Positions 15,890 to 35,970 of a stretch of DNA of 36,122 nucleotides are shown here, piece after piece; the stretch's first letter is position 1; the number at the start of each line of letters is the position of its first letter. This stretch comes from Acetobacteraceae bacterium (lineage in GTDB: Bacteria; Pseudomonadota; Alphaproteobacteria; Acetobacterales; Acetobacteraceae). The notes under the pieces were generated by a model that did not search any database, had not been told where the DNA came from, and was given only the letters and a program-made list of their open reading frames with translations. A program made the position numbers and the translations under genes. The stretch lies in NCBI GenBank assembly GCA_025354865.1, contig JANXMB010000130.1, positions 1 to 36,122 on the forward strand, written 5' to 3'.

Positions 15890-17017
15890 ATGCGATCGGA
15901 ATGGCGGCTGGACCCGAATTTTCTGACCGTCAACCACGGCAGTTTCGGCGCCACCCCGCTTTCGGTGCGCGCGGCGCAGGATGCCTGGCGGGACCGGATG
16001 GAAGCGCAACCGACCCGGTTCATGCAGGCGCTCCCCGCTTTGCTGCGGGCGGCGGCGGATCGGCTCGCCGCATTCCTCGGCGCTGCGGGGCAGGATCTGG
16101 CCTTCGTCGACAATGCCACAACCGGCTGCAACGCGGTCATCCGCTCCCTCCTTTTGCAGCCCAACGACGAAATCCTTGTGCTCGGCCACGTCTACGGCGC
16201 CGTCCGCAACACGGTCCTGTATGCCACGGAACGCGCGGGCGCGACGATGACCGAGGCTGCGGTCCCCTTCCCCAACCTGGACGACGACGCCCTGGTCGCT
16301 GCGGTCGCGCGTGCGCTGACCCCGCGCACCCGGCTGGCGATCGTCGATCATATCGCGTCGCACAGCGCATTGGTCCTGCCGGTGGCGCGCATCGTCGCGG
16401 CCTGCCATGCGGCAAACGTGCCGGTGCTGATCGACGGGGCACATGCGCCGGGGCAGATCGACGTCGATCTGACGGCGACGGATGCCGACTACTACACCGG
16501 CAATTGCCATAAATGGCTGTGTGCGCCGAAGGGCAGCGCGTTCCTTTGGGTGCGGCCGGATCGGCAGGCGGGCCTGCACCCCACCACGATCTCCCACGGG
16601 TTGGGCGGAGGGTTTTTGGCGGAGTTCGATTGGACCGGCACGCGCGATCCCTCGGCCGTGCTGTCGGTGCCCGCCGCGCTGGATTTCCACGAACGCCTGG
16701 GCGGGGCGGCAATGCGCGCGCGCAACATCGCCCTGGCGGCGGAGGCCGGCGCCATGCTCGCCCGCCGTCTGGGTACCGAAGCCGTGGCGACCGGCGGCGC
16801 CATGGGGCTGGTGCGCGTGCCGTGGGACGGTCCGCCGCAGGAACTGCGCGCGCGTCTGCTGGCGGCGGGGACCGATGCCCCGGTGAACGCGCTGGCGGGG
16901 GCCAACTGGCTGCGGCTTTCCGCCTTCGCTTACAACGAGCCGGCGGATTACGCGCGTCTGGCCGATCTCGTCGCCAAGGTGCTGCGGTCTAACAGCGGGC
17001 AGAGTCTGCCCGTTTAG
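15890..17017 (+). CDS. Class V aminotransferase-fold PLP enzyme, isopenicillin N epimerase-like
   Basis: The 375-residue protein starts MRSEWRLDPNFLTVNHGSFG; the VNHGSFG motif is typical of the isopenicillin N epimerase-like branch of the class V (NifS-like) fold. The PLP-binding residues are D182 (LIDGAHAPGQ) and the Schiff-base lysine K208 (GNCHKW). GGAG lies 7 nt before ATG 15890; the open frame extends far upstream but only as an antisense shadow of a binding-protein gene. The reaction is unknown: family members act as epimerases, cysteine desulfurases or lyases, and no beta-lactam genes are nearby. Its stop codon TAG (17015-17017) is part of the inverted repeat that follows. Confidence 0.85.
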   Translation: MRSEWRLDPNFLTVNHGSFGATPLSVRAAQDAWRDRMEAQPTRFMQALPALLRAAADRLAAFLGAAGQDLAFVDNATTGCNAVIRSLLLQPNDEILVLGHVYGAVRNTVLYATERAGATMTEAAVPFPNLDDDALVAAVARALTPRTRLAIVDHIASHSALVLPVARIVAACHAANVPVLIDGAHAPGQIDVDLTATDADYYTGNCHKWLCAPKGSAFLWVRPDRQAGLHPTTISHGLGGGFLAEFDWTGTRDPSAVLSVPAALDFHERLGGAAMRARNIALAAEAGAMLARRLGTEAVATGGAMGLVRVPWDGPPQELRARLLAAGTDAPVNALAGANWLRLSAFAYNEPADYARLADLVAKVLRSNSGQSLPV

Positions 17018-17132
17018 ACCATGATCGTTTGAGGTCGCACGCGATCTCGGCGTTGGATCATGGTCTAAGCCTTTGTTTGAGAGGGTGATTCACGCCCGAG
17101 GTTGAAGTCAACCTCAAGCGATCACGCTCTAG
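17014..17132 (-). repeat. Two-hairpin palindromic repeat, family A, filling a convergent gap
   Basis: The whole gap between the aminotransferase-like gene and the SulP gene is this element. It has perfect 13-bp arms at 17014-17026 and 17056-17068 (TTAGACCATGATC and complement) and perfect 8-bp arms at 17098-17105 and 17108-17115 (GAGGTTGA and complement), enclosed by near-perfect AGAGGGTGAT/ATCACGCTCT. Read on the minus strand it runs TAGAGCGTGAT, hairpin, GTGAATC, CAAACAAAGGCTTAGA, hairpin, CTAA, the same plan as the elements at 21354, 34426 and 35866. The TAG at one end is the stop codon of the aminotransferase-like gene, and that at the other end is the stop codon of the SulP gene. Confidence 0.85.
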
Positions 17133-18763
17133 CCTTCCGCGTGCCGAGCGATCGCTTCCTCGACCGAACGAAAAATCCACTCCGGCCCGAACGCCCGCAA
17201 CAGCCCTGTCCGCTCCGCTTGCCGCAACGCGCGCTCGGCCGACAATCGGGCGACGGCAACGGCGATACCGCGCGCGCGCAGGACTGCGATGGTGCGGATC
17301 AGCATGCCGGCGCCGGTGTAGTCGATGTCGATCGTGCCGGACGCCTCGATCACCACCAGCCGGACCGGCTGCGGCGCGCGTTCGATCGCCGCCTTCAAAG
17401 CCCCCCGCACGAAGGCGGCATTGGTGAAAATCAGTGGCGCGGCGGGGGCGAAGACCAACACGCCGGGCACGTATTCGGCGCCGCCGTCGTCGGGCGGCCA
17501 CCAGACCGTGGTGCCGGGCGCGCGGGCCAATTCCACGCAATGCGGGCGGGCGACGACGTAGAAACTGTGCAATAGCGAAAATACAACGCCGAGCACGATG
17601 CCGGTTTGAATGGGCAGCAGCACGACAAGCAGCGCGCAAGCCAGCGCGAGCACGATCTCCGACCCGCCGCGCACCGCGATTCGCACCAACTCGCCCAGCC
17701 GGAACAGGCGCGTCGCGACGCCGATCAGCAGCCCTCCCAACGCCGCATGGGGGAGAAAGCCGAGCACGGCACCGCCGCCGAACAACAGCGCGAGGGCGAG
17801 GACGATGGCCACCAGACCGGCCCATTGCGAGCCGCCCCCGGCCTCGGCCACCACTGCTGTGCGCGGGGGGCTGGCATTGACCGGGAACCCGCCGATCAGC
17901 CCGGCGAGGATGCTTCCGGCGCCGATGCCGGCGAAATCGCGGGCGACGTGCAACGGCCCCTCGGGTTGGGAGGGATAGGCACGCAGGACGGCGGCGGTTT
18001 GCACCATGCACACCATCGCGATGAGAGGCACGAGCGGCAGCAGCGCATAGACATCGGCGAAGGTCGGCATTTCCACGACCGGCAGGCCCGCGTGCAGCGC
18101 CCCCAGCATGGCGACTTGCGGGTGCCACAGGGCGACAACGCAGGATACCACCACCAGCGCCAAAAGGGCGCCGGGCACCTTCGGCATGACGATTTCGGTC
18201 GTGCGCACGATCGCCAGCACCGACAGGCCGATCCCGACCGACCAGCGATCGGCGTCCCCGATGTGCTGCCAAATCGTCGCCATGCGGGCCGGTAGACTTG
18301 GATCGCCAGGCGGGAGAAACACGGATGCGGGCAAGCCGAGCACGATGGGCAGTTGGCCGACGACGATGTGAATGGCGACGCCGGTCAGGAAGCCGGTCAC
18401 CACCGGCAGCGACAACAAATCCGCCACCCAACCGGCCCGCAGCACCGCCGCGCCGATCAGCATCGCGCCCACCATGATGGCCAACAAACCGGCCAGGGCC
18501 GCGTAATGCGGGCTGCCTACCACCGCGATCGCCGCCAATCCCGCCGCGAAAATCGGCGCCACGGTCGAATCGGCACCGGCCGAGAGGAACCGGTTGGTGC
18601 CGAAAATGGCAAAGCCGATCCCGCCGGCTACGAAGGTGTACAACCCGGCCTCCGCCGGCATGCCTGCCAGATGCGCGGTCGCGATCTGTTCGGGGATCGC
18701 GATGGCGGCCAGGAGCAATCCCGCAACACCGTCTTGCATCCTACCGTGGCGGAGTCCGATCAT
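17129..18763 (-). CDS. SulP-family anion transporter with C-terminal STAS domain
   Basis: The 544-residue inner-membrane protein begins MIGLRHGRMQDGVAGLLLAA, then has the SulP core with about 12-14 membrane segments, including the conserved IPEQIATAHLAGMPAEAGLY region and GLIGGFPVNASPPRTAV. A cytoplasmic STAS domain fills about the last 110 residues (VLVFAPAAPLIFTNA to the end), with the DIDYTGA loop matching the anti-anti-sigma-like phosphorylation loop. SulP proteins move sulfate, bicarbonate, C4-dicarboxylates or similar anions; the substrate cannot be told here. The frame is open further upstream to 18970, but that part is the antisense of the crotonase-like gene. No good ribosome site marks 18763, so the exact start is less sure. 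Its stop lies in the family A repeat. Confidence 0.88.
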   Translation of the reverse strand: MIGLRHGRMQDGVAGLLLAAIAIPEQIATAHLAGMPAEAGLYTFVAGGIGFAIFGTNRFLSAGADSTVAPIFAAGLAAIAVVGSPHYAALAGLLAIMVGAMLIGAAVLRAGWVADLLSLPVVTGFLTGVAIHIVVGQLPIVLGLPASVFLPPGDPSLPARMATIWQHIGDADRWSVGIGLSVLAIVRTTEIVMPKVPGALLALVVVSCVVALWHPQVAMLGALHAGLPVVEMPTFADVYALLPLVPLIAMVCMVQTAAVLRAYPSQPEGPLHVARDFAGIGAGSILAGLIGGFPVNASPPRTAVVAEAGGGSQWAGLVAIVLALALLFGGGAVLGFLPHAALGGLLIGVATRLFRLGELVRIAVRGGSEIVLALACALLVVLLPIQTGIVLGVVFSLLHSFYVVARPHCVELARAPGTTVWWPPDDGGAEYVPGVLVFAPAAPLIFTNAAFVRGALKAAIERAPQPVRLVVIEASGTIDIDYTGAGMLIRTIAVLRARGIAVAVARLSAERALRQAERTGLLRAFGPEWIFRSVEEAIARHAEG

Positions 18764-18812
18764 AGGGCGACTTCTACGCCCCTTCCCCACCGCCGACGCA
18801 AAGGATTCCGCC

Positions 18813-19583
18813 ATGTCCGATCTGGTGTTACGCGACGACCGGGACGGCGTGGCATGGCTGACCATGAACCGACCGGCCGCACGCAACGCCCTGTCGATGG
18901 CGCTGATGACGGCGATGGAGGCCGAATTGATCGCGATCGAGGCCGATCCCTCGGTGCGCGTGGTGGTCATCGCCGGGGCCGGTCCGGCCTTCTGCGCCGG
19001 GCACGACCTGCGGGAGGTTCGGGCGACCCCGACGCGAGAAGCCTACACGGAACTGTTTGCCCTGTGCGCGCGGCTGATGCAGCGGATCGTGGCATTACCC
19101 AAGCCGACGATCGCCCGGGTCCATGGCGTCGCCACCGCCGCCGGCTGCCAACTCGTCGCCAGCGTCGATCTTGCCATCGCCGGCCAGTCCGCTCGGTTTG
19201 CCACGCCGGGGGTCGATATCGGCCTGTTTTGCAGCACCCCGATGGTGGCACTCAGTCGCGCGGTGGGGCGCAAGGCGGCGATGGAGATGCTACTAACCGG
19301 CGATCTAATGTCGGCCGAGCACGCGCGGTCGATCGGGCTGGTCAACCAAGCGGTGCCGGACGCGGACCTGGATGCCGCCGTCGCCGCCCTCGCCGCTCGG
19401 GTTAGCAATGGCAGCCCGACTGCAATCGCCATCGGCAAAGCCGTTTTCCAGCGTCAGGCCGATATGGATTTGCCGGATGCGTACGCTTTTGCGTCGGCCA
19501 CGATGACGGAGAACATGCTGGCCCGCGACGCGGAGGAAGGGATCGACGCCTTCCTGCAAAAACGCCCGCCGGTCTGGTCTTGA
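18813..19583 (+). CDS. Enoyl-CoA hydratase/isomerase (crotonase) family protein, ECHDC3-like
   Basis: The 256-residue protein has the crotonase fold: the oxyanion-hole blocks AFCAGHDLREV and GVATAAGCQLVAS are present, so CoA-thioester binding is likely. The two catalytic glutamates of true enoyl-CoA hydratases are not in their usual places; the segments read AAGCQLVAS and TPGVDIGLFCSTPMVALSRA, the pattern of ECHDC3-like proteins. Classical hydration is therefore doubtful. AAGGA precedes ATG 18813. It is divergent from the SulP gene and 35 nt upstream of the CbpA gene on the same strand. The specific substrate is unknown. Confidence 0.87.
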   Translation: MSDLVLRDDRDGVAWLTMNRPAARNALSMALMTAMEAELIAIEADPSVRVVVIAGAGPAFCAGHDLREVRATPTREAYTELFALCARLMQRIVALPKPTIARVHGVATAAGCQLVASVDLAIAGQSARFATPGVDIGLFCSTPMVALSRAVGRKAAMEMLLTGDLMSAEHARSIGLVNQAVPDADLDAAVAALAARVSNGSPTAIAIGKAVFQRQADMDLPDAYAFASATMTENMLARDAEEGIDAFLQKRPPVWS

Positions 19584-19618
19584 TGTTCCTCGAGCGGCCT
19601 ATTACCTGAAAGCGGCCC

Positions 19619-20569
19619 ATGAACGATCCGTATGCAATCCTCGGCGTGCAGAAATCGGACGACGCGGCGGCCATCCGCGCGGCGTATCGTAAACTCGCAA
19701 AAACCCATCACCCCGACCTCAATCCCGGCAAACCCGGAGCGTTGGACCGGTTCAAGGAAATCGCCAGCGCCTACGAATTGCTGTCCGATGCGGACAAGCG
19801 GGCGAAATTCGATCGGGGGGAGATCGACGCCGCCGGCAATGAAATCCACCGCGAGCAGCGCTTCTACCGCGATTTCGGCGACGATCATCGGCGCTACGGG
19901 GCGGCGCCGGACGATCTGGACGGTATTTTCGCTCAGGCGTTCGGCCAGCGCGGCGGGCGCGGCTTTAACGCGCGCGGGCGCGATGCACACTACACGCTGA
20001 CTGTCGGATTCGTCGACGCCGCCAACGGCACCACACGCCGGATCGCCTTGCCGGAGGGACGCACCTTGGATGTGCGCATCCCCGCCGGTTCGGCCGACGG
20101 GCACGTGCTGCGCTTGAAAGGCCAGGGTGCGCCCGGCATCGGCGAAGGCCCGCCCGGCGACGCACTGGTGGAGATCGCGGTGGCGCCGCACCCGTTGTTC
20201 CGCCGCGAAGGCGACGACATCGTGGTGGAACTACCGATCTCGGTCGCGGAAGCGGTGTTGGGCACCGCGCTGGAGGTGCCGACGATCAAGGGCAAAGTGC
20301 GGCTGGCCATTCCGCCGGGGTCCGGCAGCGGCACCCGCCTGCGCCTGCGCGGCCGAGGCATTCGCGACGGGCACCAGTTCGTGCAACTGCACATCGTCCA
20401 CCCGCCCGGGGAGGAGCCGGAACTCGCCGCGTTCCTGAAAGACTGGACTCCGAAGAACCCGTTCGATCCTCGCGCTGGCCTGAAAGACGCCGGCTTCGAC
20501 AGCCCCGCCGCAGACGCCGCCGGCTCGGCCGACACCGGACCCGACCCTTCGACCGGGGGTGCGGCATGA
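19619..20569 (+). CDS. cbpA: CbpA-type J-domain co-chaperone (DnaJ without zinc finger)
   Basis: The 316-residue protein stimulates DnaK-type Hsp70 ATPase activity. The J domain is residues 1-68 with the essential HPD at 31-33. A G/F-poor linker (about 70-120) follows, then the two DnaJ C-terminal substrate-binding beta domains (about 122-290), including IPAGSADGHVLRLKGQG and VPTIKGKVRLAIPPGSGSG. No CxxCxGxG zinc repeats are present, which separates it from DnaJ proper. The C-terminal tail is Ala/Pro/Asp-rich. The 4-nt overlap with the following modulator gene, as in cbpA-cbpM operons elsewhere, supports the assignment. Confidence 0.9.
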   Translation: MNDPYAILGVQKSDDAAAIRAAYRKLAKTHHPDLNPGKPGALDRFKEIASAYELLSDADKRAKFDRGEIDAAGNEIHREQRFYRDFGDDHRRYGAAPDDLDGIFAQAFGQRGGRGFNARGRDAHYTLTVGFVDAANGTTRRIALPEGRTLDVRIPAGSADGHVLRLKGQGAPGIGEGPPGDALVEIAVAPHPLFRREGDDIVVELPISVAEAVLGTALEVPTIKGKVRLAIPPGSGSGTRLRLRGRGIRDGHQFVQLHIVHPPGEEPELAAFLKDWTPKNPFDPRAGLKDAGFDSPAADAAGSADTGPDPSTGGAA

Positions 20570-20892
20570 TGCGTGCGACCACCATCGTCGCATTGTGCGA
20601 TGGACTGCGGGAAACCGATCTGCTGACCTGGGTGGAGCGCGGCTGGGTCCGCCCGGACGACGGCCTGTCGTTCCAGGATGCCGACGTCGCCCGCGTGCGC
20701 CTGATCCACGAATTGCTGTTCCGGATGGACATGCGGGAAGACGCGATTCCGCTGATTCTGTCGTTGCTGGATCAGGTTTACGACCTGCGCGGCGCGCTGC
20801 ATGCCGTGCTCGGCGCCATCCGGGACCAGCCGGCCCCAGTGCGCGGTGCGGTAACATTGCGCGGTGCCATCCTGGCGGGGCTGCGGCTTTAG
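20566..20892 (+). CDS. cbpM: CbpM-like chaperone modulator
   Basis: This 108-residue protein is small and helical, with a MerR-like N-terminal part (LRETDLLTWVERGWVRP, then FQDADVARVRLIHEL) and the CbpM-typical DAIPLILSLLDQVYDLR. In other bacteria CbpM binds the J domain of CbpA and inhibits it. The start ATG overlaps the cbpA stop (ATGA, 20566-20569); a second ATG at 20569 is also possible. Overlap and partner identity make the function likely, though the sequence alone is short. Confidence 0.85.
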   Translation: MMRATTIVALCDGLRETDLLTWVERGWVRPDDGLSFQDADVARVRLIHELLFRMDMREDAIPLILSLLDQVYDLRGALHAVLGAIRDQPAPVRGAVTLRGAILAGLRL

Positions 20893-20926
20893 CCGTATCC
20901 TCGGCCCGTTCGCGAGGGAGCAGGCC

Positions 20927-21349
20927 ATGCTGACCATCAAGCAAATCGACCATCTGGTGCTGCGGGTCGTCGACCTGCCGAAGATGCTGGCATTCTACAT
21001 CGACACCATCGGATGCAGCCTGGAAAAAACGCAGGAGGCGCTGGGGCTGTACCAACTCCGGGCGGGCAGTTCGTTGATCGATCTGGTGCCGGTGGACGGG
21101 CCGCTGGGGCTGAAAGGCGGTGCCCCGCCGGGGCGGGAGGCACGCAACCTCGATCATTTCTGCGTGCAGATCGACCCGTTCGATGCCGACGCTGTGATCG
21201 CGCATCTGAAGGCGCACGGAGCCGATCCCGCGCCGGTCGCATCCCGCTACGGGGCACAGGGTCAGGGACCGTCGATCTACGTGGCGGACCCCGAGGGCAA
21301 TGTGGTGGAACTGAAAGGCCCGCCCTGGCCGGACGGGGTCGCGCCGTAA
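20927..21349 (+). CDS. VOC (glyoxalase/dioxygenase superfamily) protein
   Basis: The 140-residue protein has one pair of beta-alpha-beta-beta-beta modules. The N-terminal module starts MLTIKQIDHLVLRVVD with a likely metal-binding His, and the C-terminal one has LDHFCVQI and ends with DPEGNVVELKG, whose Glu is the usual last metal ligand. GGGAG lies at 20915-20919, ahead of ATG 20927; the frame runs back to 20864 inside cbpM, but that has no ribosome site. Members act on glyoxal adducts, fosfomycin or aromatic diols; I cannot choose between them. Confidence 0.85.
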   Translation: MLTIKQIDHLVLRVVDLPKMLAFYIDTIGCSLEKTQEALGLYQLRAGSSLIDLVPVDGPLGLKGGAPPGREARNLDHFCVQIDPFDADAVIAHLKAHGADPAPVASRYGAQGQGPSIYVADPEGNVVELKGPPWPDGVAP

Positions 21350-21353
21350 CCGG

Positions 21354-21459
21354 TTAGAGCGCGATGACCGGAGGTGGAATCACCGGAGGTCTTAATCGCG
21401 CGACCAAACAATAGGTTAGATCGCGATACGTGAGCGAGAGCGAACGCATCGCGCTCTAA
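21354..21459 (+). repeat. Two-hairpin palindromic repeat, family B, copy 1
   Basis: The element is bounded by perfect 12-bp inverted ends (TTAGAGCGCGAT at 21354-21365 and ATCGCGCTCTAA at 21448-21459). Inside, GCGCGAT (21359-21365) can pair with ATCGCGC (21395-21401) to make a first hairpin, and CGCGAT near 21422 with ATCGCG at 21448 to make a second, joined by CAAACAATAGGTTAGA. Nearly identical copies lie at 34426-34530 and 35866-35970 in the same orientation. It starts 4 nt after the stop of the VOC gene, in the gap facing convergent folC. Confidence 0.92.
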
Positions 21460-21511
21460 TACCAGCCGACCGAACCTCTGACTCTCTCGCAAGCGGTCGG
21501 TCGGCTGGTAT
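21459..21511. terminator. Long perfect hairpin in the VOC/folC convergent gap
   Basis: ATACCAGCCGACCGA (21459-21473) is perfectly complementary to 21497-21511, a 15-bp stem with a 23-nt loop. It touches the end of the family B repeat. No T-run follows on either strand, so it may be a bidirectional barrier or folded element rather than a classical terminator. Confidence 0.5.
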
Positions 21512-21560
21512 CCTCTTGATTTCGCGCGCAGCCGCCACGCCAACCCTGCGCGCATACCGG

Positions 21561-22844
21561 TCAGCCGTTCGGCCGACCGGTATAACCGTCCGCTTTCAGC
21601 ACCTCGGCCGCCAGATACAAGCTGCCGCAGATCAACACCCGAGCAGGCGGCGCGTTCGGCAGCGCGGCCAAAGCAGCCAAAGCGGCGGCCAGGGTCGGGC
21701 CGGCTCGCGCGACGCCACCCGATGCCGCAATCGCTTCATCCACCGACATTGCCGCATGCTGTTCGGCTTCCGCGATCGCCCAAACCGATGCCGCCTCGGG
21801 GATCAACGGGCGCAGGAACCCGGCGCCGTCCTTCGCCCGATTGAGCCCCACCACCAGATGCGTCGGCCGATCCCGCCAACCCTGCAGGTGCTCGGCCAAC
21901 GCCGCCCCGGCGCCGGGATTGTGCCCGCCGTCCAACCACAACTCCCACTCCGGCGGCAGCATCGCCGCCAGTCGGCCGCGCAGATGTTGCAGGCGGGCGG
22001 GCCAGTCGGCGGCGGCAACCCCCGGCCCGATCGCCGCATCCGGCAACCCCAGACCGCTCGCTCGGAGTGCCGCGATCGCGATTCCGGCATTGTCCCACTG
22101 GTGCGCGCCGGGCAAGCCGAGCGGGGGAAGGGTCAGGGTTCCGTGGGAGTCGGTGAAGCGGAAGGGTTCGATGTCCCAATCGCGCCCGCGCACCACCGCC
22201 GGGGCGCCGATCGCAGCGGCGCGATCCAGCAGAACGCGCAGAACCTCCGGCGGTTGGGCACCGATCGCCACGGGCACGCCGGGTTTCAAGATCCCCGCTT
22301 TCTCCGCCGCGATCGCCGCGAGGGTGTCGCCGAGCAGTTCCTTGTGATCGAGGGATATCGACGCGATCGCGGTTGCGGCCGGCGGGGGGATGACGTTGGT
22401 CGCATCGCCGCGCCCGCCCAATCCGACCTCCAGCACGCAGAGATCGGCCGGGGTATTGGCGAACATGTGGAAAGCGGCGGCGGCGATGACTTCGAATAAG
22501 GTGATGGGGGTGTTGGCGTTCGTCGCCTCGATATGCGCCATCGCGGCGTTCAACACGGGATCGGACACGATTTGCCCGGCAATCCGAAACCGCTCGTTGA
22601 ACCGCACCAGATGCGGGGAGGTGAAGACATGCACGCGCCAGCCCGCAGCCTCGGCGATGGCACGCAGGAAGGCGCAGGTGCTGCCTTTGCCGTTGGTGCC
22701 GGCGACGTGGATGACCGGGGGCAGACGCCGTTCGGGATTGCCCAGCTTCGCCAGCAAGCCGTGCAGACGATCGAGGCTGAGGTCCATCAGTCGCGGATGC
22801 AGCGCGGTCAGGCGTGCGAGAACCGGGTCGGTATTGTCGCTCAC
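21561..22844 (-). CDS. folC: FolC, folylpolyglutamate/dihydrofolate synthase
   Basis: FolC adds glutamate to dihydropteroate and to folates in the cytoplasm. The 427-residue protein has the ATP-binding loop GTNGKGS (49-55), then FTSPHLVRFNERFRI, the Mur-ligase-like VLEVGLGGRGDATNVI with the carbamylated-Lys region SISLDHKELLGDT, and the C-terminal LWLDGGHNPGAGAAL. The start is GTG 22844, whose GTGA overlaps the accD stop; the frame to 22871 lies inside accD. It is the last gene of the trpB-trpA-accD-folC cassette, an arrangement shared with other alphaproteobacteria. Confidence 0.95.
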   Translation of the reverse strand: MSDNTDPVLARLTALHPRLMDLSLDRLHGLLAKLGNPERRLPPVIHVAGTNGKGSTCAFLRAIAEAAGWRVHVFTSPHLVRFNERFRIAGQIVSDPVLNAAMAHIEATNANTPITLFEVIAAAAFHMFANTPADLCVLEVGLGGRGDATNVIPPPAATAIASISLDHKELLGDTLAAIAAEKAGILKPGVPVAIGAQPPEVLRVLLDRAAAIGAPAVVRGRDWDIEPFRFTDSHGTLTLPPLGLPGAHQWDNAGIAIAALRASGLGLPDAAIGPGVAAADWPARLQHLRGRLAAMLPPEWELWLDGGHNPGAGAALAEHLQGWRDRPTHLVVGLNRAKDGAGFLRPLIPEAASVWAIAEAEQHAAMSVDEAIAASGGVARAGPTLAAALAALAALPNAPPARVLICGSLYLAAEVLKADGYTGRPNG

Positions 22845-27757: not shown

Positions 27758-27771
27758 CGGAGCACCGAGTC

Positions 27772-29117: not shown

Positions 29118-29159
29118 CAATCGCGGCAAACTGCGCCACCCAAAACGGAGGACCGTTCC

Positions 29160-29942
29160 ATGGACGATAGAATGCACACCGAGATCGAGGGATCCGTCTG
29201 CGGCCTCGACGGCTGCACGACCGATAGCGCCGCGATTCAAAATACCACTGGGGCCATGCTCGACCGGGCCGGGGATGTCGGCACCCGCATCGACATCGTG
29301 TCCGATACGATCTGCCCGTGGTGCTATATCGGCAAGCGCAACCTGGAAAGCGCGTTGGCGACGCTGGCGGCCGAGGGGCTGCATTTCACCGTCCATTGGA
29401 ATCCGTTCCAACTCAATCCCGACATGGCGAAGGAAGGCCGGGACCGTGCGGCCTATCGCGCCTGGAAATTCGGCAGCGCGGAAAAGGCCAAGGCGATCGA
29501 CGCGCGCATCCAGGACGCGGCCGAGGGCGCTGGCCTGCATTTCCGCCAGGACCTGATGACCCGCACCCCCAACACGATCGACGCGCATCGTCTGATCTGG
29601 TTCGCCGGGCAGCACGGCGTGCAGGATGCGACGATGGAGATCGTGTTCGAAGCTTATTTCGAACAAGGCAAGGACGTGGGCGACCATGCGGTGCTGGCCG
29701 ATTGCGGGGCAGCGGCCGGCATGGACCGCGACGCGATCGTGGCATTCCTGGCCAGCGACCAGGCCGACCAGGAAATGCGGGCGGCCGATCAATCCGCGCG
29801 CGAAGCCGGGGTTAGCGGGGTGCCGTCGTTCTTCCTCGATGGATATTCGGTCTTCTCTGGCGCGATGCCCCCCGAGCAGATGGCGCAAGCATTCCGACGC
29901 GGCCAGCAGGTGCTGCGCGAACAAGCCGCGAAAGCGGCGTAA
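29160..29942 (+). CDS. DsbA-family FrnE-like oxidoreductase with a Cys-bearing N-terminal extension
   Basis: The 260-residue protein has the thioredoxin-fold active site C52-P-W-C55 (SDTICPWCYIGKRN) and an inserted helical domain, with the cis-Pro loop SGVPSFFLDG near the end, as in FrnE and 2-hydroxychromene-2-carboxylate isomerase relatives. No signal peptide is seen, so it should act in the cytoplasm. The usual FrnE protein begins close to TRIDIVSD; here about 42 extra residues (MDDRMHTEIEGSVCGLDGCT...) precede it, with Cys14 and Cys19. The start is well supported by GGAGGA 7 nt before ATG 29160. It is 18 nt upstream of the sulfhydrylase-like gene, suggesting co-transcription. Confidence 0.88.
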   Translation: MDDRMHTEIEGSVCGLDGCTTDSAAIQNTTGAMLDRAGDVGTRIDIVSDTICPWCYIGKRNLESALATLAAEGLHFTVHWNPFQLNPDMAKEGRDRAAYRAWKFGSAEKAKAIDARIQDAAEGAGLHFRQDLMTRTPNTIDAHRLIWFAGQHGVQDATMEIVFEAYFEQGKDVGDHAVLADCGAAAGMDRDAIVAFLASDQADQEMRAADQSAREAGVSGVPSFFLDGYSVFSGAMPPEQMAQAFRRGQQVLREQAAKAA

Positions 29943-29960
29943 ATAACAGGAGTCCCGTCG

Positions 29961-31253
29961 ATGACATCGAAGAACCCCGAAACGCTCGCCCTGCATGCCG
30001 GCTGGCGGCGCGATCCCGCGACCAACGCCGTGGCGGTGCCGATCTACCAAACCACGTCGTTTCAGTTCGACAGCAGCGAGCATGCGGCGAACCTGTTCGG
30101 CCTGAAAGAACTCGGCAACATCTACACCCGCATCATGAACCCGACGCAGGATGTGTTCGAGCAACGGATCGCCGCGCTGGAAGGCGGGGTTGCCGCCCTC
30201 GCACTCGCCTCCGGTCAGGCCGCTTCGGCGTTTTCAGTGCAAAACCTTGCCCGCGTGGGGGACAATATCGTGTCGTCCACCGATCTTTATGGCGGCACCT
30301 GGAACCTGTTTGCGAACACGCTGAAGGATCAGGGGATCGAGGTCCGGTTCGTCGATCCGACCGACCCCGAGGCGTTTCGCCGCGCCACCGACGACAAAAC
30401 CCGCGCCTATTACGCGGAAACCTTGCCGAATCCGAAGCTCATTCCCTTCCCCATCGCGGAAGTCGCCGCCATCGGCCGTTCCTTCGGTATTCCGCTGATC
30501 ATGGACAACACCGCAGCCCCGCTGCTGGTACGCCCGTTCGATCACGGCGCGGCGGTGGTGATGTATTCGGCCACGAAATACATCGGCGGCCATGGCACCT
30601 CGATCGGCGGCGTTGTCATCGACGGCGGCAATTTCGATTGGGAAGCCCATCCCGTCCGCCAACCGTTGCTGAACCAACCCGACCCGTCCTATCACGGCGC
30701 CGTCTGGTCGCAGGCCGTCAAGCCGCTGGGTCCGATCGCCTATATCCTGAAAATGCGGGTCACCCTGCTGCGCGACCTCGGCGCCGCGATCGCTCCGTTC
30801 AATTCATTCCTGCTTCTGCAAGGAATCGAAACCCTGGCGTTGCGCATGAAGGCGCATAGCGAAAACGCACTGGCGGTGGCGAAATTCCTTGCCGGACGCA
30901 AGGATGTTTCGCGGGTCATCCACCCGTCGCAACACACCGGCGCGGCGGCGGAACGGACGGCGAAATATCTGCCGAAGGGTATGGGCGGGCTGTGCGGCTT
31001 CGAGCTTGCTGGCGGCGCCGAGGCCGGGCGGAAGTTCATCAACGCCCTAAAGATGATCTATCATGTCGCCAATATCGGAGATGCCCGCAGCTTGGCCATC
31101 CATCCCGCCAGCACCACCCATTCGCAGTTGTCGGCCGAGGAACAGGCCGCCACCGGGGTGACGCCGGGCTATGTGCGTCTGTCCGTGGGGATCGAGCATA
31201 TCGACGACATCCTGGCCGATCTGTCGCAGGCGCTCGAAGCCGCAGCGTCGTAA
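29961..31253 (+). CDS. metY: O-acetylhomoserine sulfhydrylase (aminocarboxypropyltransferase) family enzyme
   Basis: The 430-residue PLP enzyme of the Cys/Met-metabolism family makes homocysteine from O-acetylhomoserine and sulfide, in the direct sulfhydrylation route to methionine. It begins with the family pattern ETLALHAGWRRDPATNAVAV and has the Schiff-base lysine K206 in YSATKYIGGHG and D182 in IMDNTAAP. Length near 430 fits MetY rather than the shorter MetB/MetC. AGGAG precedes ATG 29961. The FrnE-like gene just upstream suggests a shared link to thiol or sulfur metabolism, which is inference. Confidence 0.92.
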   Translation: MTSKNPETLALHAGWRRDPATNAVAVPIYQTTSFQFDSSEHAANLFGLKELGNIYTRIMNPTQDVFEQRIAALEGGVAALALASGQAASAFSVQNLARVGDNIVSSTDLYGGTWNLFANTLKDQGIEVRFVDPTDPEAFRRATDDKTRAYYAETLPNPKLIPFPIAEVAAIGRSFGIPLIMDNTAAPLLVRPFDHGAAVVMYSATKYIGGHGTSIGGVVIDGGNFDWEAHPVRQPLLNQPDPSYHGAVWSQAVKPLGPIAYILKMRVTLLRDLGAAIAPFNSFLLLQGIETLALRMKAHSENALAVAKFLAGRKDVSRVIHPSQHTGAAAERTAKYLPKGMGGLCGFELAGGAEAGRKFINALKMIYHVANIGDARSLAIHPASTTHSQLSAEEQAATGVTPGYVRLSVGIEHIDDILADLSQALEAAAS

Positions 31254-31264
31254 CACCGTGCCGC

Positions 31265-31295
31265 CGCGCGTCGCCTCGGTCGTAGGCGACGCGCG
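31265..31295. terminator. Strong hairpin after the sulfhydrylase gene
   Basis: CGCGCGTCGCCT (31265-31276) pairs perfectly with 31284-31295 across a 7-nt loop, starting 11 nt after the stop codon. There is no T-run, so it may stop transcription only partly or protect the 3' end of the message. Confidence 0.55.
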
Positions 31296-31315
31296 CGGAT
31301 TATGACACACTCGGA

Positions 31316-32182
31316 ATGATACCACTTCGTTCGGGACGAGCGGCGGTGCTGACATGTCTGGCGATGGCCGGGTTTGCCAGCATGGATGCGATCGGGAAAT
31401 TCCTGGTGCGCGACTATCCCATCGTGCAGACGTTGTGGATTCGCTACATCGTTTTCACCGCCTTTGCCCTCGCAGTCGCATGGCCGCACATTTCGTTACG
31501 CAGTGCTCGGCCATGGCTACAGGCCGGTCGCGGGGTCCTCGCGTTGGTGGAAAACGGGGTGTTCGTGCTGGCGTTTGCCTTTTTGCCGCTGGCCGACACC
31601 CATGCGATCGCCGCGACGTCGCCGTTGCTCGTGGTCGCATTGTCCGTCGCATTCCTGCGCGAAAAAGCCGGCCTGCATCGCTGGCTGGCGGTGTTGGTGG
31701 CCTTCGTCGGCGTTCTGGCGATCGTGCGGCCGGGGTTTCAGACATGGTCCTGGCCGTTGGCCATCCCCCTGGTGGGTGCGCTGCTTTGGGCGGTTTACCA
31801 AATCCTGACCCGCCTCGTTGCCGGTTCGGATCGGAACGAAATCACTCTGCTGTGGACAGCGATTTCCGGTCTGATCGGGACATCGCTGCTGGTCCCCTGG
31901 TTCTGGGTTCCCCCCTCCCCCACCGCATGGCTCTTACTCGTCTGTGTCGGGCTGCTCGGCTCTGCCTCCCACTACGCATTGATTGCCGCATTGAACTTCG
32001 CCGAGGCCGGGGCAGTTCAACCTTATGCGTATACCCTGCTGCTATGGGCGACGCTGCTTGGTTTCGCGGTCTTCGGCGACCTGCCGGATGCCTGGACATT
32101 GGCTGGCGCCTCGGCCGTGGTGCTGAGCGGTCTGTACACCTGGAATCGCGATCGGTTGGACGCACGGTCGGCCGGGCGGTAA
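31316..32182 (+). CDS. EamA (DMT-superfamily) transporter
   Basis: The 288-residue membrane protein has ten predicted membrane segments arranged as two EamA repeats, with FASMDAIGKFLVRDYP at the start of the first and family features such as PLADTHAIAATSPLLVVALS. Such proteins export metabolites or amino acids, and the substrate is unknown. No clear ribosome site marks ATG 31316; the start is chosen because it leaves a complete first membrane segment. The gene follows a strong hairpin, so it may have its own promoter in 31296-31315 or be reached by read-through. Confidence 0.88.
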   Translation: MIPLRSGRAAVLTCLAMAGFASMDAIGKFLVRDYPIVQTLWIRYIVFTAFALAVAWPHISLRSARPWLQAGRGVLALVENGVFVLAFAFLPLADTHAIAATSPLLVVALSVAFLREKAGLHRWLAVLVAFVGVLAIVRPGFQTWSWPLAIPLVGALLWAVYQILTRLVAGSDRNEITLLWTAISGLIGTSLLVPWFWVPPSPTAWLLLVCVGLLGSASHYALIAALNFAEAGAVQPYAYTLLLWATLLGFAVFGDLPDAWTLAGASAVVLSGLYTWNRDRLDARSAGR

Positions 32183-32332
32183 GCTCGTCCTGATCGCATC
32201 CTGTGCGGCAATGGGGTTTCGGCTTATAAACACTGGTATGCGGGATGCACCGAGCCGTTTGTTCGACCGGACTGCGCCGATAATCGGTCGGATAGTTCCA
32301 TTCGTGCCGGCACATAGCGGGAGTTCGGGTGC

Positions 32333-32767
32333 ATGGTAGACGATAATATCCGGATCGTATTCGAACCGTTGCCGGACGCGGATTTGCAACGTTATCTCGA
32401 AGACAATGTCGTCAACCTCAGTTTTGCCAAGACCGGTCTGACGGAATGGTTCCCCGTCGGTTTCTTCCTACGCTCCGATCGCGGCGAGTGGCTGGGCGGC
32501 TGCACTGGCCATCTCTGGGGCGGTTGGTTGCAGATCCGTTGGCTCTGGGTGTCGGAAATGCTGCGCCATCGCGGCTTCGGCACCGGCCTGATGGACGCTG
32601 CCGAGGCCTATGGGCGCGAACGCGGCGCCCACGATGCGACGTTGGAAACCCATAGCTATCAGGCGCCGGATTTTTATCGCAAACGCGGATATACCGTATT
32701 CGGAACGCTGCCGGATTATCCGATCGGGCACAGTAAATTGTTTCTACGCAAAAACCTGAAGCAATAA
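32333..32767 (+). CDS. GNAT-family N-acetyltransferase
   Basis: The 144-residue protein has the GNAT acetyl-CoA-binding motif A, LWVSEMLRHRGFGTGLMDAA, with the R-x-x-G-x-G pyrophosphate loop, and motif B near APDFYRKRGYTVFG. GGGAG precedes ATG 32333. It probably acetylates a small molecule or protein N-terminus; the substrate is unknown. It meets the cupredoxin gene tail to tail with 4 nt between stop codons. The 150 nt before it hold no further gene that I can see. Confidence 0.88.
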   Translation: MVDDNIRIVFEPLPDADLQRYLEDNVVNLSFAKTGLTEWFPVGFFLRSDRGEWLGGCTGHLWGGWLQIRWLWVSEMLRHRGFGTGLMDAAEAYGRERGAHDATLETHSYQAPDFYRKRGYTVFGTLPDYPIGHSKLFLRKNLKQ

Positions 32768-32771
32768 CCGC

Positions 32772-33116
32772 TTATTCGGTCACGATCGCCTTGCCCTTCA
32801 TATGCGGATGCAGACCGCAGATATAGTCGAAGGTTCCGATTTTATCGAATTTGTAGGAGAACGAGGCGTCGGTATCCATTGTCTTCGATCGCACGCCGGT
32901 TTTGATGAAAAGCACGGTATGCGGGATATCATCGTTGTTGGTCCAAGTGACTTCGGTTCCTTTCTGTATCTTCAATTCTGCCGGAGAAAAGGCGAAATTG
33001 TCGATATGCACGGCAACTTTACCGGTTTCCCCTCGGGCGCCGAGGGGAAGCACGCCAAGCAGCAGGGTGGATAAAGCGCGGCGGGTCCAAAGATGCGGGT
33101 TCGCAACAGCAGACAT
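32772..33116 (-). CDS. Periplasmic cupredoxin (plastocyanin/azurin-like copper protein)
   Basis: The 114-residue precursor has a leader with TRR and a hydrophobic core (RRALSTLLLGVLPLGARG), so it is exported, possibly by Tat. The mature domain, about 85 residues, has the type 1 copper ligands H66 (DDIPHTV), C100, H103 and M106 (YICGLHPHMKG), the pattern of amicyanin- and pseudoazurin-like proteins. GGAGAG lies directly before ATG 33116. It is 136 nt downstream of the metallophosphoesterase gene on the same strand, and the pair lies next to the ECF sigma genes, suggesting a role in an envelope stress or electron-transfer response. Confidence 0.92.
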   Translation of the reverse strand: MSAVANPHLWTRRALSTLLLGVLPLGARGETGKVAVHIDNFAFSPAELKIQKGTEVTWTNNDDIPHTVLFIKTGVRSKTMDTDASFSYKFDKIGTFDYICGLHPHMKGKAIVTE

Positions 33117-33159
33117 TCTACTCTCCGTGTACTGAATAATTGTGTGGAAGCATGCTGTC

Positions 33160-33193
33160 GGAGTGCGATACGATCGTCGAAGTATCGCACTCC
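33160..33193. other. Perfect hairpin between the phosphoesterase and cupredoxin genes
   Basis: GGAGTGCGATAC (33160-33171) pairs perfectly with 33182-33193 across a 10-nt loop. A smaller hairpin CCATCG/CGATGG lies at 33213-33230. Both are in the 136-nt space inside the presumed two-gene unit and have no T-run on the minus strand. They could stabilise or separate the two messages. Confidence 0.5.
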
Positions 33194-33252
33194 TATATTT
33201 ACTTCTGTCGCACCATCGTAGCTGCGATGGTTGCGCTTTCGATCGTTACGAA

Positions 33253-34179
33253 CTAGCCGGCGAGCGGGGTATCGACGACCGCCAGCGGTGCGTTGTTCGT
33301 TACTAAGGTGACTCTGCGGATACCGAGGTAGTCTTTCAGCGTGCCGGCAGCGACAGGCATCGGCCCCGGGCCTTTCGCCACCCCCGGAACGCCTTGCGGA
33401 AAGGCGGTGGAGCGGGCGGAATGGAATGCCACATGCCCCTCGATCTTCTGCATGACCTGATGGATATGGCCGTTCAGCACGGTGACGGAACCGAATTTCT
33501 TCAGATGGGTCAACGCCATCGCGCCATCCGCAGTGCCCCAGCCCCAATCCTGATAGGCGATCCACAGCGGCACATGGGCGAACACGACGATCGGGGTGCT
33601 GGCGCTTAGGCCGGCCACGTCCTTGGCCAACCAATCCAGTTGCGGCTTGCCGAGCGTGCCGAGGCCGGCGCCTTGGAGGTCGATGACGTTGACGAGGCCG
33701 ATGAAATGCACCCCGTGCGTGTCGAAACTATACCAACCATCGCCTTTCGTGCCCTTACCGTAGCGATTGAGGTAGCTTTTGCGATTTTCCTCCAGCACAT
33801 CGTGCTCCCCGGGCACGGTGTAGACCTGCAAGCCGGTGGATTTCAGCAATTGCGCGCCGTCGTCGAATTCCTTGGGCTTCGACAAATGCGTGATGTCGCC
33901 AGTGTGGATCAGGAAGGACGGCTTCTGCGGCTGAGCAACGACCTTGCGCAACGCCTCCTGAAACGTGCCGGTGACATCGGTGTTGACCGGCTTGTCGAAA
34001 CCCAGATGGCTGTCGCTGACCTGTGCGAAGGTGAATCCTTTGGTCTCCGCCGCTTCGGCTCGGCCGACGATGCGCGATGTCGGGATCCCCCCGGCGATCG
34101 ACCAGACGGCGGCGGCACCGGCCCATGTCATGCATTGCAGAAAGCCGCGTCGGTCGCGGTTGTCCGGTTCCTCGGTCAT
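33253..34179 (-). CDS. Tat-exported calcineurin-like metallophosphoesterase
   Basis: The 308-residue precursor begins MTEEPDNRDRRGFLQCMTWA, a canonical Tat motif (DRRGFLQ) followed by a hydrophobic stretch, so it should be folded and metallated before export. The metallophosphoesterase motifs are D56-S-H58 (QVSDSHLG), GD95 (HTGDITH), GEHD (124-127), FAHVPLW and NGHIH. The GEHD site replaces the usual GNHD, so the bridging Asn is Glu125. I chose ATG 34179 because AGGAGGG precedes it; the frame to 34332 has no such site. It faces the ECF sigma gene across a repeat-filled gap and is followed by the cupredoxin gene. The substrate is unknown. Confidence 0.9.
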   Translation of the reverse strand: MTEEPDNRDRRGFLQCMTWAGAAAVWSIAGGIPTSRIVGRAEAAETKGFTFAQVSDSHLGFDKPVNTDVTGTFQEALRKVVAQPQKPSFLIHTGDITHLSKPKEFDDGAQLLKSTGLQVYTVPGEHDVLEENRKSYLNRYGKGTKGDGWYSFDTHGVHFIGLVNVIDLQGAGLGTLGKPQLDWLAKDVAGLSASTPIVVFAHVPLWIAYQDWGWGTADGAMALTHLKKFGSVTVLNGHIHQVMQKIEGHVAFHSARSTAFPQGVPGVAKGPGPMPVAAGTLKDYLGIRRVTLVTNNAPLAVVDTPLAG

Positions 34180-34305
34180 GGAATATCCCTCCTGGCGGCG
34201 GGAACCACGATCGGCCCCGTCAGCGGCATTACCGGCCAAGGCTGCGGAATATTCCCGGCCGAGCGCATATTTCCACTTCGGGCTATTTTTTCGATTTTCG
34301 GGAAT

Positions 34306-34333
34306 AATGCCGGCGGTAAGCCGGTATGGCATT
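34306..34333. repeat. Short inverted repeat next to the family C element
   Basis: AATGCC at 34306-34311 is complementary to GGCATT at 34328-34333, with a further possible CCGGC/GCCGG pairing inside. It lies just before the family C repeat and may be part of the phosphoesterase promoter region. Confidence 0.4.
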
Positions 34334-34337
34334 TGGA

Positions 34338-34428
34338 CCTAGTGGTCAGAATCTGACCACTAGGCTTTAGATTTGGCGGGCCGATTCACCTAACGCTTGG
34401 GACTCAAGCGTTAGGATCGGACCACTAG
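34338..34428 (-). repeat. Two-hairpin palindromic repeat, family C
   Basis: The element has a perfect 13-bp hairpin with a 1-nt centre (CCTAGTGGTCAGA and complement, 34338-34364), a second perfect 11-bp hairpin (CCTAACGCTTG and complement, 34389-34415), and outer ends CTAGTGGTC (34339-34347) and GACCACTAG (34420-34428). On the minus strand the segment between the hairpins reads GTGAATC...CAAATCTAAAGCCTAG, which resembles the linker of the family A repeat. It shares its last three bases with the family B copy that follows. Confidence 0.85.
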
Positions 34429-34530
34429 AGCGCGATGACCGAAGGTGGAATCACCGAAGGTCTGAATCGCGCGAACAAACAATAGGATAGAGCGCGAGAC
34501 GTGAGCGAGAGCGAACGCATCGTGCTCTAG
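34426..34530 (+). repeat. Two-hairpin palindromic repeat, family B, copy 2
   Basis: This copy is nearly identical to those at 21354 and 35866, with ends TAGAGCGCGAT and ATCGTGCTCTA (one G-T pair instead of G-C), the block CTGAATC and the linker CAAACAATAGGATAGA. It directly follows the family C element. Its final TAG (34528-34530) is an in-frame stop 15 nt before the presumed sigma-factor start. Confidence 0.92.
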
Positions 34531-34545
34531 CAAAACAGGCACGGT

Positions 34546-35097
34546 TTGGCACACGACGATCGCAAACGCCGCTTTGAACTTCTCGCGCTGCCGCATCTCG
34601 ACGCGGCGTTCAATCTCGCGCGCTGGCTGGCCGGGAATAGCGCCGATGCGGAAGACGTGGTGCAGGATGCGTACCTCCGCGCCTATCGCTATTTCGATTC
34701 GTTTCACGGCGGCGAATTCCGGGTCTGGCTGCTGTCGATCGTGCGCAATTGTTTCCTCGACTGGGTCAAGGACAATCGATCCGGCCGACTGCTGTTCCAG
34801 CCCGAACCGGCGGGCGAGGCCGACGATATGCTGTGGTCCGAGCGTCCGCGCGACCCCGAGTCATTGTTGCTCGACAGCATCGACAGCCAGACCTTGGAGC
34901 AACTGATGTTGCGTTTGCCGATCGAGTACCGGGAAGTCCTGCTGCTGCGAGAGGTCGAAGACCTGTCCTATAAGGAGATCGCCGTCATCGTAAACACGCC
35001 TTTGGGGACGACGATGTCCCGCCTCGCCCGAGCCCGCCTGGCGCTGCGGAAACTCTGGTTGGACGCGCACCCATCGGAACCCGCCCATGGCCTGTGA
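34546..35097 (+). CDS. ECF-type RNA polymerase sigma factor
   Basis: The 183-residue protein has region sigma-2 (about 17-76: DAAFNLARWLAGN, then DAEDVVQDAYLRAYRYF) and region sigma-4 (about 115-170: LRLPIEYREVLLLREVEDLS with the helix-turn-helix YKEIAVIVNTPLGTTMSRL). The only start available after the upstream stop at 34528 is TTG 34546, with a weak AGG before it. It overlaps the anti-sigma gene by 11 nt, so the two are probably coupled and form a switch. The promoter must lie inside or upstream of the repeats. The target genes are unknown; the divergent phosphoesterase and cupredoxin are natural candidates. Confidence 0.9.
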   Translation: MAHDDRKRRFELLALPHLDAAFNLARWLAGNSADAEDVVQDAYLRAYRYFDSFHGGEFRVWLLSIVRNCFLDWVKDNRSGRLLFQPEPAGEADDMLWSERPRDPESLLLDSIDSQTLEQLMLRLPIEYREVLLLREVEDLSYKEIAVIVNTPLGTTMSRLARARLALRKLWLDAHPSEPAHGL

Positions 35098-35851
35098 TCG
35101 TTCCGCGACCTTGCCGGCGCTGTTGGCCGATGGCGCCTTTCGCCAGCCGCGCCGCTTTTTAGCCGAGCGGCATGTTGGTCGCTGCCCCGATTGCGCGATG
35201 GCTTTGGACGAACGCCACGCCGCAAAAACCATGCTGCGCACCAAACTGCCCTTCCACCGCGCCCCCCCGGGCCTGGCTGCTCGGATTGGCGCCGCACTGC
35301 CCCGCGAAACCCCGCCGGTCGTGGCGCGGCGGCGCGGTTTGTCCCAGACGTTTGCCGGCGGATTGGCCAGCGGAACGATCGGTGCCCTCGCCGGTGTTGC
35401 CGCAACCCTGCTGGCGGTGCTTCCGCTCGGCGCCCCCGATGCGGCGGTGCAAGGCGCGATCGACAGTCACATCCGATCCCTGATGGCGGATCACCTGACC
35501 GACGTCGCCACCAGCGACCAACACACGGTCAAGCCGTGGTTGTCCGCGCGACTGGATGTTTCGCCGCCAGTACGGGATATGGCCGATCTCGGGTTTCCGC
35601 TGGTGGGCGGGCGGTTGGATTATGTCGCGGGGCATAAAGGCGCGGCGGTGGTCTACCGCCATGCCAAGCATGTCATCAATGTCTTCGCCTGGGCTGCGCC
35701 GGGCAGCGACACCGGGTTTGCCGAACGGGCGCATCAGGGTTTCAACGTCGTGTCCTGGCGGCGAGGCGGCATCGCCTATTGCGCCGTTTCCGATCTGGAG
35801 CCGGATCAACTCGCCGCTTTCGCGCGTTTGGCGAGCGGACCGGCGTCGTAG
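35087..35851 (+). CDS. Membrane anti-sigma factor with zinc-binding (ZAS-like) N-terminus
   Basis: The 254-residue protein has a cytoplasmic N-terminal domain with C3 and H29-x3-C33-x2-C36 (ERHVGRCPDC), the zinc-binding anti-sigma pattern, then one membrane segment (about 88-112, from FAGGLASGTIGALAGVAATL) and a periplasmic domain with VVYRHAKHVINVFAWAA, a block common in anti-sigma factors of this class. It should hold the sigma factor at the membrane until a signal, perhaps redox or metal, releases it. ATG 35087 lies within the end of the sigma gene. The identity of the signal is not visible. Confidence 0.88.
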   Translation: MACDRSATLPALLADGAFRQPRRFLAERHVGRCPDCAMALDERHAAKTMLRTKLPFHRAPPGLAARIGAALPRETPPVVARRRGLSQTFAGGLASGTIGALAGVAATLLAVLPLGAPDAAVQGAIDSHIRSLMADHLTDVATSDQHTVKPWLSARLDVSPPVRDMADLGFPLVGGRLDYVAGHKGAAVVYRHAKHVINVFAWAAPGSDTGFAERAHQGFNVVSWRRGGIAYCAVSDLEPDQLAAFARLASGPAS

Positions 35852-35865
35852 CGGTGATCCGCTTT

Positions 35866-35970
35866 TAGAGCGCGATGACCGAAGGTGGAATAACCGGAGG
35901 TCTGAATCGCGCGAACAAACAATAGGTTAGATCGCGATACGTGAGCGAGAGCGAACGCATCGCGCTCTAG
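35866..35970 (+). repeat. Two-hairpin palindromic repeat, family B, copy 3
   Basis: The copy has perfect inverted ends (TAGAGCGCGAT and ATCGCGCTCTA), the block CTGAATC and the linker CAAACAATAGGTTAGA, and differs from copy 1 at only a few positions. It starts 14 nt after the anti-sigma stop and lies in the gap facing the convergent gene at the end of the window. Confidence 0.92.

Follow-up and report, generated by a model that had tools for sequence, protein, structure and literature searches.

The window analyzed here, the whole 36,122-nt stretch of contig JANXMB010000130.1 from an Acetobacteraceae bacterium (assembly GCA_025354865.1), carries five short repeats of three families, termed A, B (copies B1, B2 and B3) and C. 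The repeats are non-coding, measure roughly 90–117 bp and lie where a first-pass annotation of this DNA had placed them, with deviations of 1–2 nt at most (Table 1). As had also been proposed there, all three families follow a single plan. In our analysis, this plan consists of TAG, a hairpin with a 3-nt TGA bulge, a linker, TAG, a second hairpin and CTA. Each of the five elements starts and finishes with TA, inside this TAG...CTA frame, and folding predicted two separate hairpins in every one of them. In hairpin 1, the 5' arm ends with GAT and the 3' arm reads TGA-ATC, with the TGA (TTA in B1) being unpaired. The GAATC block and the linkers agree with the earlier description, B1 carrying TTAATC. 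The stems had been described as completely different between the families; this is true of C, which differs throughout, but not of A and B, as the left outer arms of both read TAGAGCGYGAT. C and B2 are fused, with the TA at 34426-34427 being common to both. When compared to Rfam, the window gave no match at gathering scores.

Table 1. Positions of the repeats, their parts and the adjoining stop codons in the window.
Feature	Position	Strand	Remarks
Element A	17015..17131	-	117 bp including TA at both ends; left TAGAGCGTGATCGC..., right ...GATCATGGTCTA
A, hairpin 1 (TGA-bulged) and linker	17065..17131	-	linker CAAACAAAGGCT-TAG
A, hairpin 2	17015..17067	-	
TAG of A as stop codon of upstream ORF	17015..17017	+	open reading frame (ORF) called 15908-17017 (+), aminotransferase-like by eye
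Other TAG of A as stop codon of convergent ORF	17129..17131	-	ORF called 17129-19000 (-), sulfate-permease-like by eye
Element B1	21355..21458	+	
Element C	34339..34427	-	second hairpin short
C, hairpin 1 and linker	34360..34427	-	
Family C end type			TAGTGGTC
Element B2	34426..34529	+	joined to C
Element B3	35866..35969	+	
B3, hairpin 1 and linker	35866..35930	+	linker CAAACAATAGGT-TAG
B3, hairpin 2	35928..35969	+	

To count copies, we searched the genome from which the window comes (G000, 4.76 Mb; genomes, contigs and loci are designated below by G, C and L numbers) with the core pattern TGAATCNNNNN{1,3}CAAAN{4,9}TAG, which joins TGAATC, CAAA and TAG with free spacing. The pattern gave 131 matches (70 and 61 on the two strands), while the reversed pattern gave none on either strand (0 and 0). 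The repeat is thus not a matter of chance, and the linker is conserved genome-wide, as the first-pass annotation had supposed. A BLAST search of the same genome with B yielded at least 43 matches, of which 41 were nearly full length, at 91–100% identity; this number is a lower bound, as 40 of 179 first-look candidates were scored. The corresponding search with A yielded at least 41 matches at 96–100% identity (40 of 65 first-look candidates scored). When plasmids were searched by BLAST with A, B and L274 as queries, 0 matches were obtained. Of the 104 A-type end matches in G000, 100 were listed, and most of these are paired 117 bp apart. One pair, on C155, is 269 bp apart because another small element lies within that A copy. 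A-end matches found at several contig ends and on C23, C73, C113 and C171 have no partner among the 100 listed, and those on C23, C113 and C171 are altered, as judged by eye.

The folding of hairpin 1 was examined in 101 units that formed 18 clusters. The 3-nt TGA bulge is present in the predicted fold of all 18 cluster representatives, although it should be noted that TGAATC belonged to the search pattern behind these representatives and behind the 22 units aligned below. For the alignment, 16 of the cluster representatives were used together with six other copies, and one row contains a typing error that is confined to unpaired columns. In the named structure, 79% of the cells are paired. 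Cells changed on both sides number 103, as compared to 35 in shuffled alignments (0/500 as high), and the covariation score is 0.50, while shuffles gave 0.16 and sliding the structure gave no more than 0.13. Double changes are present in all 12 inner pairs of hairpin 1. Of the five measures, two did not rise above the shuffles, namely the number of pairs with a double change (43/500) and of further pair types (260/500). The stems of hairpin 1 thus vary while the pairing stays, in line with the earlier proposal that folding is kept beyond the stem sequence. Template-switch hairpin repair could likewise keep the stems matching, yet such repair would be expected to erase the bulge. GANTC is found at the bulge of all 22 units and a second time in the loop of 7. 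Recognition of the hairpin as single-stranded DNA or as RNA and control by CcrM are possible reasons for the bulged hairpin having been kept. In the window as a whole, 66 GANTC sites are present in 36 kb, about half of what base composition predicts by a hand estimate, with eight of these being within the five elements.

For the ends, we counted, across all loci collected, copies whose BLAST match reached both ends. A pyrimidine (Y) precedes the left TA in 46/47 A, 22/22 C and 31/36 B copies, and a purine (R) follows the right TA in 46/47 A, 22/22 C and 38/39 B copies, the target consensus being Y-TA-R. Fused copies have one TA in common. A search with joined flanks mostly matched nested or tandem elements, yet provided at least two usable empty sites. 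At the first, a G387 gene ends GGC-TAA, while its G412 relative reads GGC-TA-element-TA-A. At the second, two paralogous G000 loci were compared (L230 and L208), with TTAG being found where the other copy carries A. The flanks, the Y-TA-R target and the two slightly gapped empty sites fit a TA-duplicating DDE element. We infer that the TA is duplicated rather than carried by the element, although both would leave the same sequence. C and B2 are, moreover, missing from the corresponding locus of six relatives, five of which were aligned on both sides and one (L101) on one side, with the spacer there being about 26-32 nt (three measured by script and three by eye). In the window, C and B2 lie between the promoter-like pair GGGAATAA...CGGTATG and the start, at 34546, of an ORF that by eye resembles an extracytoplasmic function (ECF) sigma factor. 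The two elements add about 190 bp of folded sequence to the presumed 5' leader of this gene (34280-34546), and a CAGG motif is still present ahead of its start codon despite their presence.

The empty sites also bear on the notion that it was chiefly not transposition that spread the repeats, but homologous recombination, slippage or gene conversion. Hairpin-1 units of 52-64 bp that are repeated in tandem (G000, G412, G394 and G399) speak for such processes, as does the finding that a single first hairpin can be joined to different second hairpins. Nonetheless, copies scattered among unrelated flanking sequences have the same TA as their boundary, and in the two empty-site pairs the occupied site is set apart from the empty one by the element and by other gaps of 1 and 6 nt. 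We regard this explanation as extremely unlikely.

The repeats are spread unevenly among related genomes. Within the genus, the core pattern is found in 20 of 33 genomes (own included), with 13 having no match. G412 holds 292 copies, G000 131, G406 86, G394 41, G416 35 and G409 30, while the other 27 hold at most nine each. A copies are 98% identical both within and between G000 (38 copies) and G412 (12 copies), including 77 identical pairs, while the host DNA of the two is only about 76% alike at the single locus compared. Family A thus seems to have multiplied recently, in a burst that extended across species. A C-type pattern search of species genomes gave 66 stretches, under names including Rhodopila, Acidisphaera, Siccirubricoccus, Magnetospirillum, Telmatospirillum and Kiloniellaceae, and a query from G051 matched 16 places in nine Azospirillum plasmids. 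In a class-wide pattern search, 154 of 385 genomes had matches, mostly one to six; as the controls were positive as well, with one genome giving 102 control matches, only G277 (12 matches, as compared to 2 for the control) stands out beside the own genome. A covariance model, an approach that the first-pass annotation had suggested, gave matches at E 0.001 or better in 36 of the 385 alphaproteobacterial genomes. These 36 represent 25 families; for each genome, 13 candidates were scored, and the E-values are rough. Four of the 36 (G000, G051, G277 and G327) had contributed rows to the model, and the four other same-family genomes within the 385 gave no match to it. An inverted pair with a common linker, that is, two overlapping hairpins on opposite strands, is seen among the listed matches of at least eight genomes. 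Of 27 loci that were printed, many show the TGA bulge, two (L281 and L288) have no clear fold and two (L279 and L285) had been cut at the wrong place.

Placement relative to genes was analyzed for 93 copies with at least 400 bp on each side, copies nearer to a contig end having been dropped, using a home-made gene caller based on codon usage. Not one of the 93 was found within a called gene. Convergent genes flank 36 of them, tandem genes 45 and divergent genes 11, with one undetermined. Moreover, 36 copies sit exactly on a stop codon (A 17/31, B 14/42 and C 5/20). The TAG of the element is the stop codon on 40 of 117 sides that face the 3' end of a gene, and no other element-to-stop distance listed (up to 55 nt) exceeds three sides. 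Free YTAR sites at 103 non-overlapping loci served as a background, with 29 at stops, 109 intergenic and 136 coding. These counts imply strong avoidance of genes and a use of stop codons about twofold above chance (roughly 39% versus 21%, p 1e-4). In the public annotation of the Azospirillum plasmids, a coding sequence (CDS) ends on the TAG of the element in 4 of 7 annotated places (H4, H6, H8 and H9). One place per record was considered, with H2 and H4-H9 being counted (H9 is a partial match), and the H1 record carries no gene annotation; for H6, the sequence letters themselves were read. A comparable case is described for the pneumococcal BOX repeat: of 58 CDSs that overlap it, 36 are reported to have their stop codon encoded by the repeat (PMC3049150). 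As for the genes concerned, B3 follows an anti-sigma-like gene (by eye; window 35087-35969), and in Azospirillum lipoferum AZO_p4 (L397 764-1604) the gene whose stop codon coincides with an element is annotated as a ChrR anti-sigma gene, a similarity of neighbourhood that is possibly a coincidence.

Such placement could also be expected of structures that are useful to the host, such as transcription terminators, RNA-processing sites or CcrM (GANTC) methylation sites. The absence of copies from called genes and the 36 copies between convergent genes agree with a host function, as do the GANTC within TGAATC, the second GANTC in the loop of 7/22 units and the persistence of the bulge while the stems change. 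Other results are hard to reconcile with it: Family A is nearly identical in two species that are 76% alike at the locus compared, 27 of the 33 genus genomes have nine matches or fewer and 13 have none. Beside tandem genes, 26 copies are on the strand of the genes and 19 on the other, and no T-run follows the stems of the window copies, as judged by eye with no terminator scan made. As, in addition, the placement is largely what YTAR targeting combined with gene avoidance predicts, we consider a host function unlikely.

The first-pass annotation had named repetitive extragenic palindromic (REP) elements mobilised by RAYT transposases as the nearest known concept, with membership marked as an inference, and mobilisation of this kind is not supported by our searches. 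The corresponding proposal is that the repeats are of the REP/REPIN-like kind and that a Y1 transposase (RAYT or IS200-type) mobilises them in single-stranded form, recognising the bulged hairpin and a TAG tag. The two hairpins, each of which follows a TAG, the inverted pairs with a common linker in several other families and the strongly conserved folding would all suit such a mover. Y1_Tnp (PF01797) was, however, absent from the own genome, while the same search was positive in 5 of 14 control genomes. Within the genus, to which this comparison was limited, 28 of the 33 genomes (counting the own one) lack it, and every one of the six genomes with at least 30 copies belongs to these 28. The five genomes with Y1 hold 0, 0, 0, 1 and 5 copies, although the difference in copy number between genomes with and without Y1 is not significant by itself (p 0.16). 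Y1 enzymes target a one-sided tetranucleotide, from which the symmetric Y-TA-R flanks would not be expected. Movement by Y1 is thus, in our judgment, very unlikely.

A different candidate enzyme was found at the end of contig C95 in G000, where the 101 C-terminal residues of an IS630 transposase (IS, insertion sequence) are encoded. This part matches NF033545 with E 1.5e-21, which is below the whole-protein cut-off, and DDE_3 with 6.6e-19, and is 59% identical to the IS630 transposase of G406 over 99 residues. The terminus TAGAGCATGATTGTTTTAGATTG lies 15 nt past its stop codon. Compared after TAG, this terminus agrees with the left end of A in 15/22 letters (14 for the other A variant) and with the right end in 16/22, while the background mean is 5.1, with 1 of 2208 TAG sites reaching 15 or more and two reaching 13 or more, including an altered A copy. 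In G406, the IS630 element is 1082 bp long, with ends that are alike in 20/25 letters, TA flanks and a transposase divided over two ORFs. The right ends of the elements of G416, G400, G415, G385, G409 and G406 agree with the right end of this IS630 in 15-20 of 22 letters, as compared to a background maximum of 14, taken from G000. The G406 IS630, although matched by the right ends of these six congeners, is resident in G406 alone. Two further IS630-type ends, in G412 and G409, begin with TAGAGC, and DDE_3 is present in 8 of 10 genus genomes searched. For ISY100, a member of the IS630 family, insertion into TA with duplication of the TA is reported as demonstrated (PMC2170065).

Taken together, we think it likely that the elements are non-autonomous mini-transposons (miniature inverted-repeat transposable elements, MITEs) of the IS630 (Tc1/mariner-like) kind, with a plan of two arms plus linker resembling that of the CIR repeats discussed below. 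The features tested agree, as the elements are short, non-coding and have TA at both ends, according to the flank counts and the two empty sites with their small gaps. Family A is best read as IS630-kind MITE-like elements and the families of several relatives probably are the same, while B and C are placed with them by the common plan and target rule. An IS630 transposase would then be the presumed mover, for B and C as well. Acting in trans, such a transposase would cut the element out at its terminal TAs, and insertion at Y-TA-R would duplicate the TA. As the letter next to the TA is G at the start of the element and C at its end, each of its ends would give a TAG stop to a gene running into it. 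An element that enters a YTAA or YTAG stop codon would place its G behind the target TA, restoring a TAG stop without change to the upstream protein. Copies that damage genes would then be lost by selection, and those between genes and on stop codons would remain.

The assignment to IS630 faces several difficulties that need to be considered. The right end of the G397 elements agrees with the G406 IS630 in only 12/22 letters (one miss of seven congeners), the ends of family B are only weakly similar to IS630 ends (7-13/22) and those of family C, at 2-8/22 compared with all IS630 ends found, are at background level. The number of transposases does not follow the number of copies: G394, with 41 pattern copies, has no DDE_3 match, while G390, G405 and G402 have 8, 3 and 2 DDE_3 matches, respectively, yet 0 pattern copies. 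The IS630 of G000 is interrupted by the contig end, so that one terminus is visible and its activity is putative. Small gaps are present at the junctions of both empty sites, of 1 nt for G387/G412 and of 1 and 5 nt for L230/L208. The stop-codon enrichment is rough, since the background loci were chosen for holding elements and the gene caller is home-made. A DDE transposase is not known to require a conserved bulged hairpin, and the IS ends that were folded lacked a TGA-bulged hairpin. Finally, no autonomous copy, in which A-type ends would enclose a gene, was recognised among the 100 end matches listed for G000, although a slight chance of one being present is left. A more far-reaching idea, that we consider rather doubtful, is that the repeats belong to a transposon lineage extending across the alphaproteobacteria, with selection acting on the hairpins in their folded single-stranded form. 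Each end would have become a TGA-bulged foldback with its GAATC as a putative CcrM site, which would tie transposition to replication or methylation state, and the TAG-regenerating ends would make insertion at stop codons silent.

Among known repeats, the closest kind appears to be CIR, the Caulobacter CcrM-associated intergenic repeats reportedly described by Chen and Shapiro in 2003. As characterized in two accounts, CIR are about 110 bp long, consist of two arms and a linker, have TA termini and GANTC, are not intragenic and occur in several alphaproteobacteria (PMC2229807, PMC10969869), features that the window elements have in common with them. This likeness is one of description, with kinship to CIR1-CIR4 being putative. 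A 2007 review treats CIR as only partly MITE-like, with mobility unresolved, and its entry lists no terminal inverted repeat (TIR) and an unknown target-site duplication (TSD) (PMC2229807). The present repeats, by contrast, have outer ends that resemble each other, a Y-TA-R target and a candidate mover of the IS630 kind. In CIR, the GANTC is described at the terminal loop of one arm, whereas here it is at the bulge in 22/22 units, TGAATC being part of the search pattern, and in the loop in 7/22. RUP of Streptococcus pneumoniae (107 bp, with IS630-Spn1 as proposed mover) is similar in size, TA termini and ends like those of a resident IS630 (PMC2229807, PMC3049150). The review's general scheme gives non-CIR repeats one end-to-end stem with no arms or linker (PMC2229807), while two independent arms, a linker and a bulge are present here. 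REP/REPIN elements are alike in their palindromes, inverted pairs, TAG tag and high copy number, but have a Y1 mobiliser, while here the high-copy genomes lack Y1 and the flanks are Y-TA-R. REP palindromes are given as 20-40 bp with a GTAG or CGTC tag (PMC3733652), as compared to hairpin-1 arms of about 45-52 nt, mostly with Y-TAG, here.

Repeats of Sinorhizobium pSymB, presumably those called RIME-like, are also similar, being about 105 bp long with TAGAGC...GCTCTA and two hairpins in the 350 kb searched. The copies printed have no TGAATC bulge by eye, unlike the window elements, and model R1 gave one match in S. meliloti pSymB (350 of 1683 kb), with E 0.52, which is no real match. Among the open-licence papers listed in our searches, none ties CIR-type repeats to an IS630 mobiliser. 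The present case thus gives repeats of the CIR plan a candidate enzyme, a target rule and termini, and offers a simple reason why many of them sit on stop codons. The question of mobility becomes testable in the laboratory, where the 2007 review, in its remarks on CIR, saw more needed to learn how they move (PMC2229807).

Several smaller observations concern sequences within or beside the repeats. Tandem arrays of hairpin-1 plus linker units (52-64 bp), seen in G000, G412, G394 and G399, lie at L041, L129, L232, L247 and L248 and on G394 contigs C187 and C52, with a second hairpin following only some of them. The element within the A copy of C155 (L243 1281-1549; G000:C155 14680-14948) is about 150 bp long, has CAGGCTGCTGAAAAA ends and lies in the inner TA of that copy with an apparent TTAG duplication; an end of the CAGGCTGCTGAAAAA type is also found after a B hairpin in L203. 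At L048 (1528-2446), an element that appears IS5-like by eye, with GGGCCTGTCGTCAATT ends, is inserted at CTAG behind the first hairpin of a B copy. This element was considered as a donor of the ends and rejected, as only 4-8 of 22 letters agree with A, B or C. Directly after B1, the window contains a palindrome, TACCAGCCGACCG...CGGTCGGCTGGTA (21460-21510), the end of which resembles the terminus behind another DDE_3 transposase of the own genome (L372, ...ATACCAGCC), so that it may represent a second MITE family. Lastly, the final 141 bp of the window (35982-36122) are identical to the start of contig C76, and the two contigs may therefore join.

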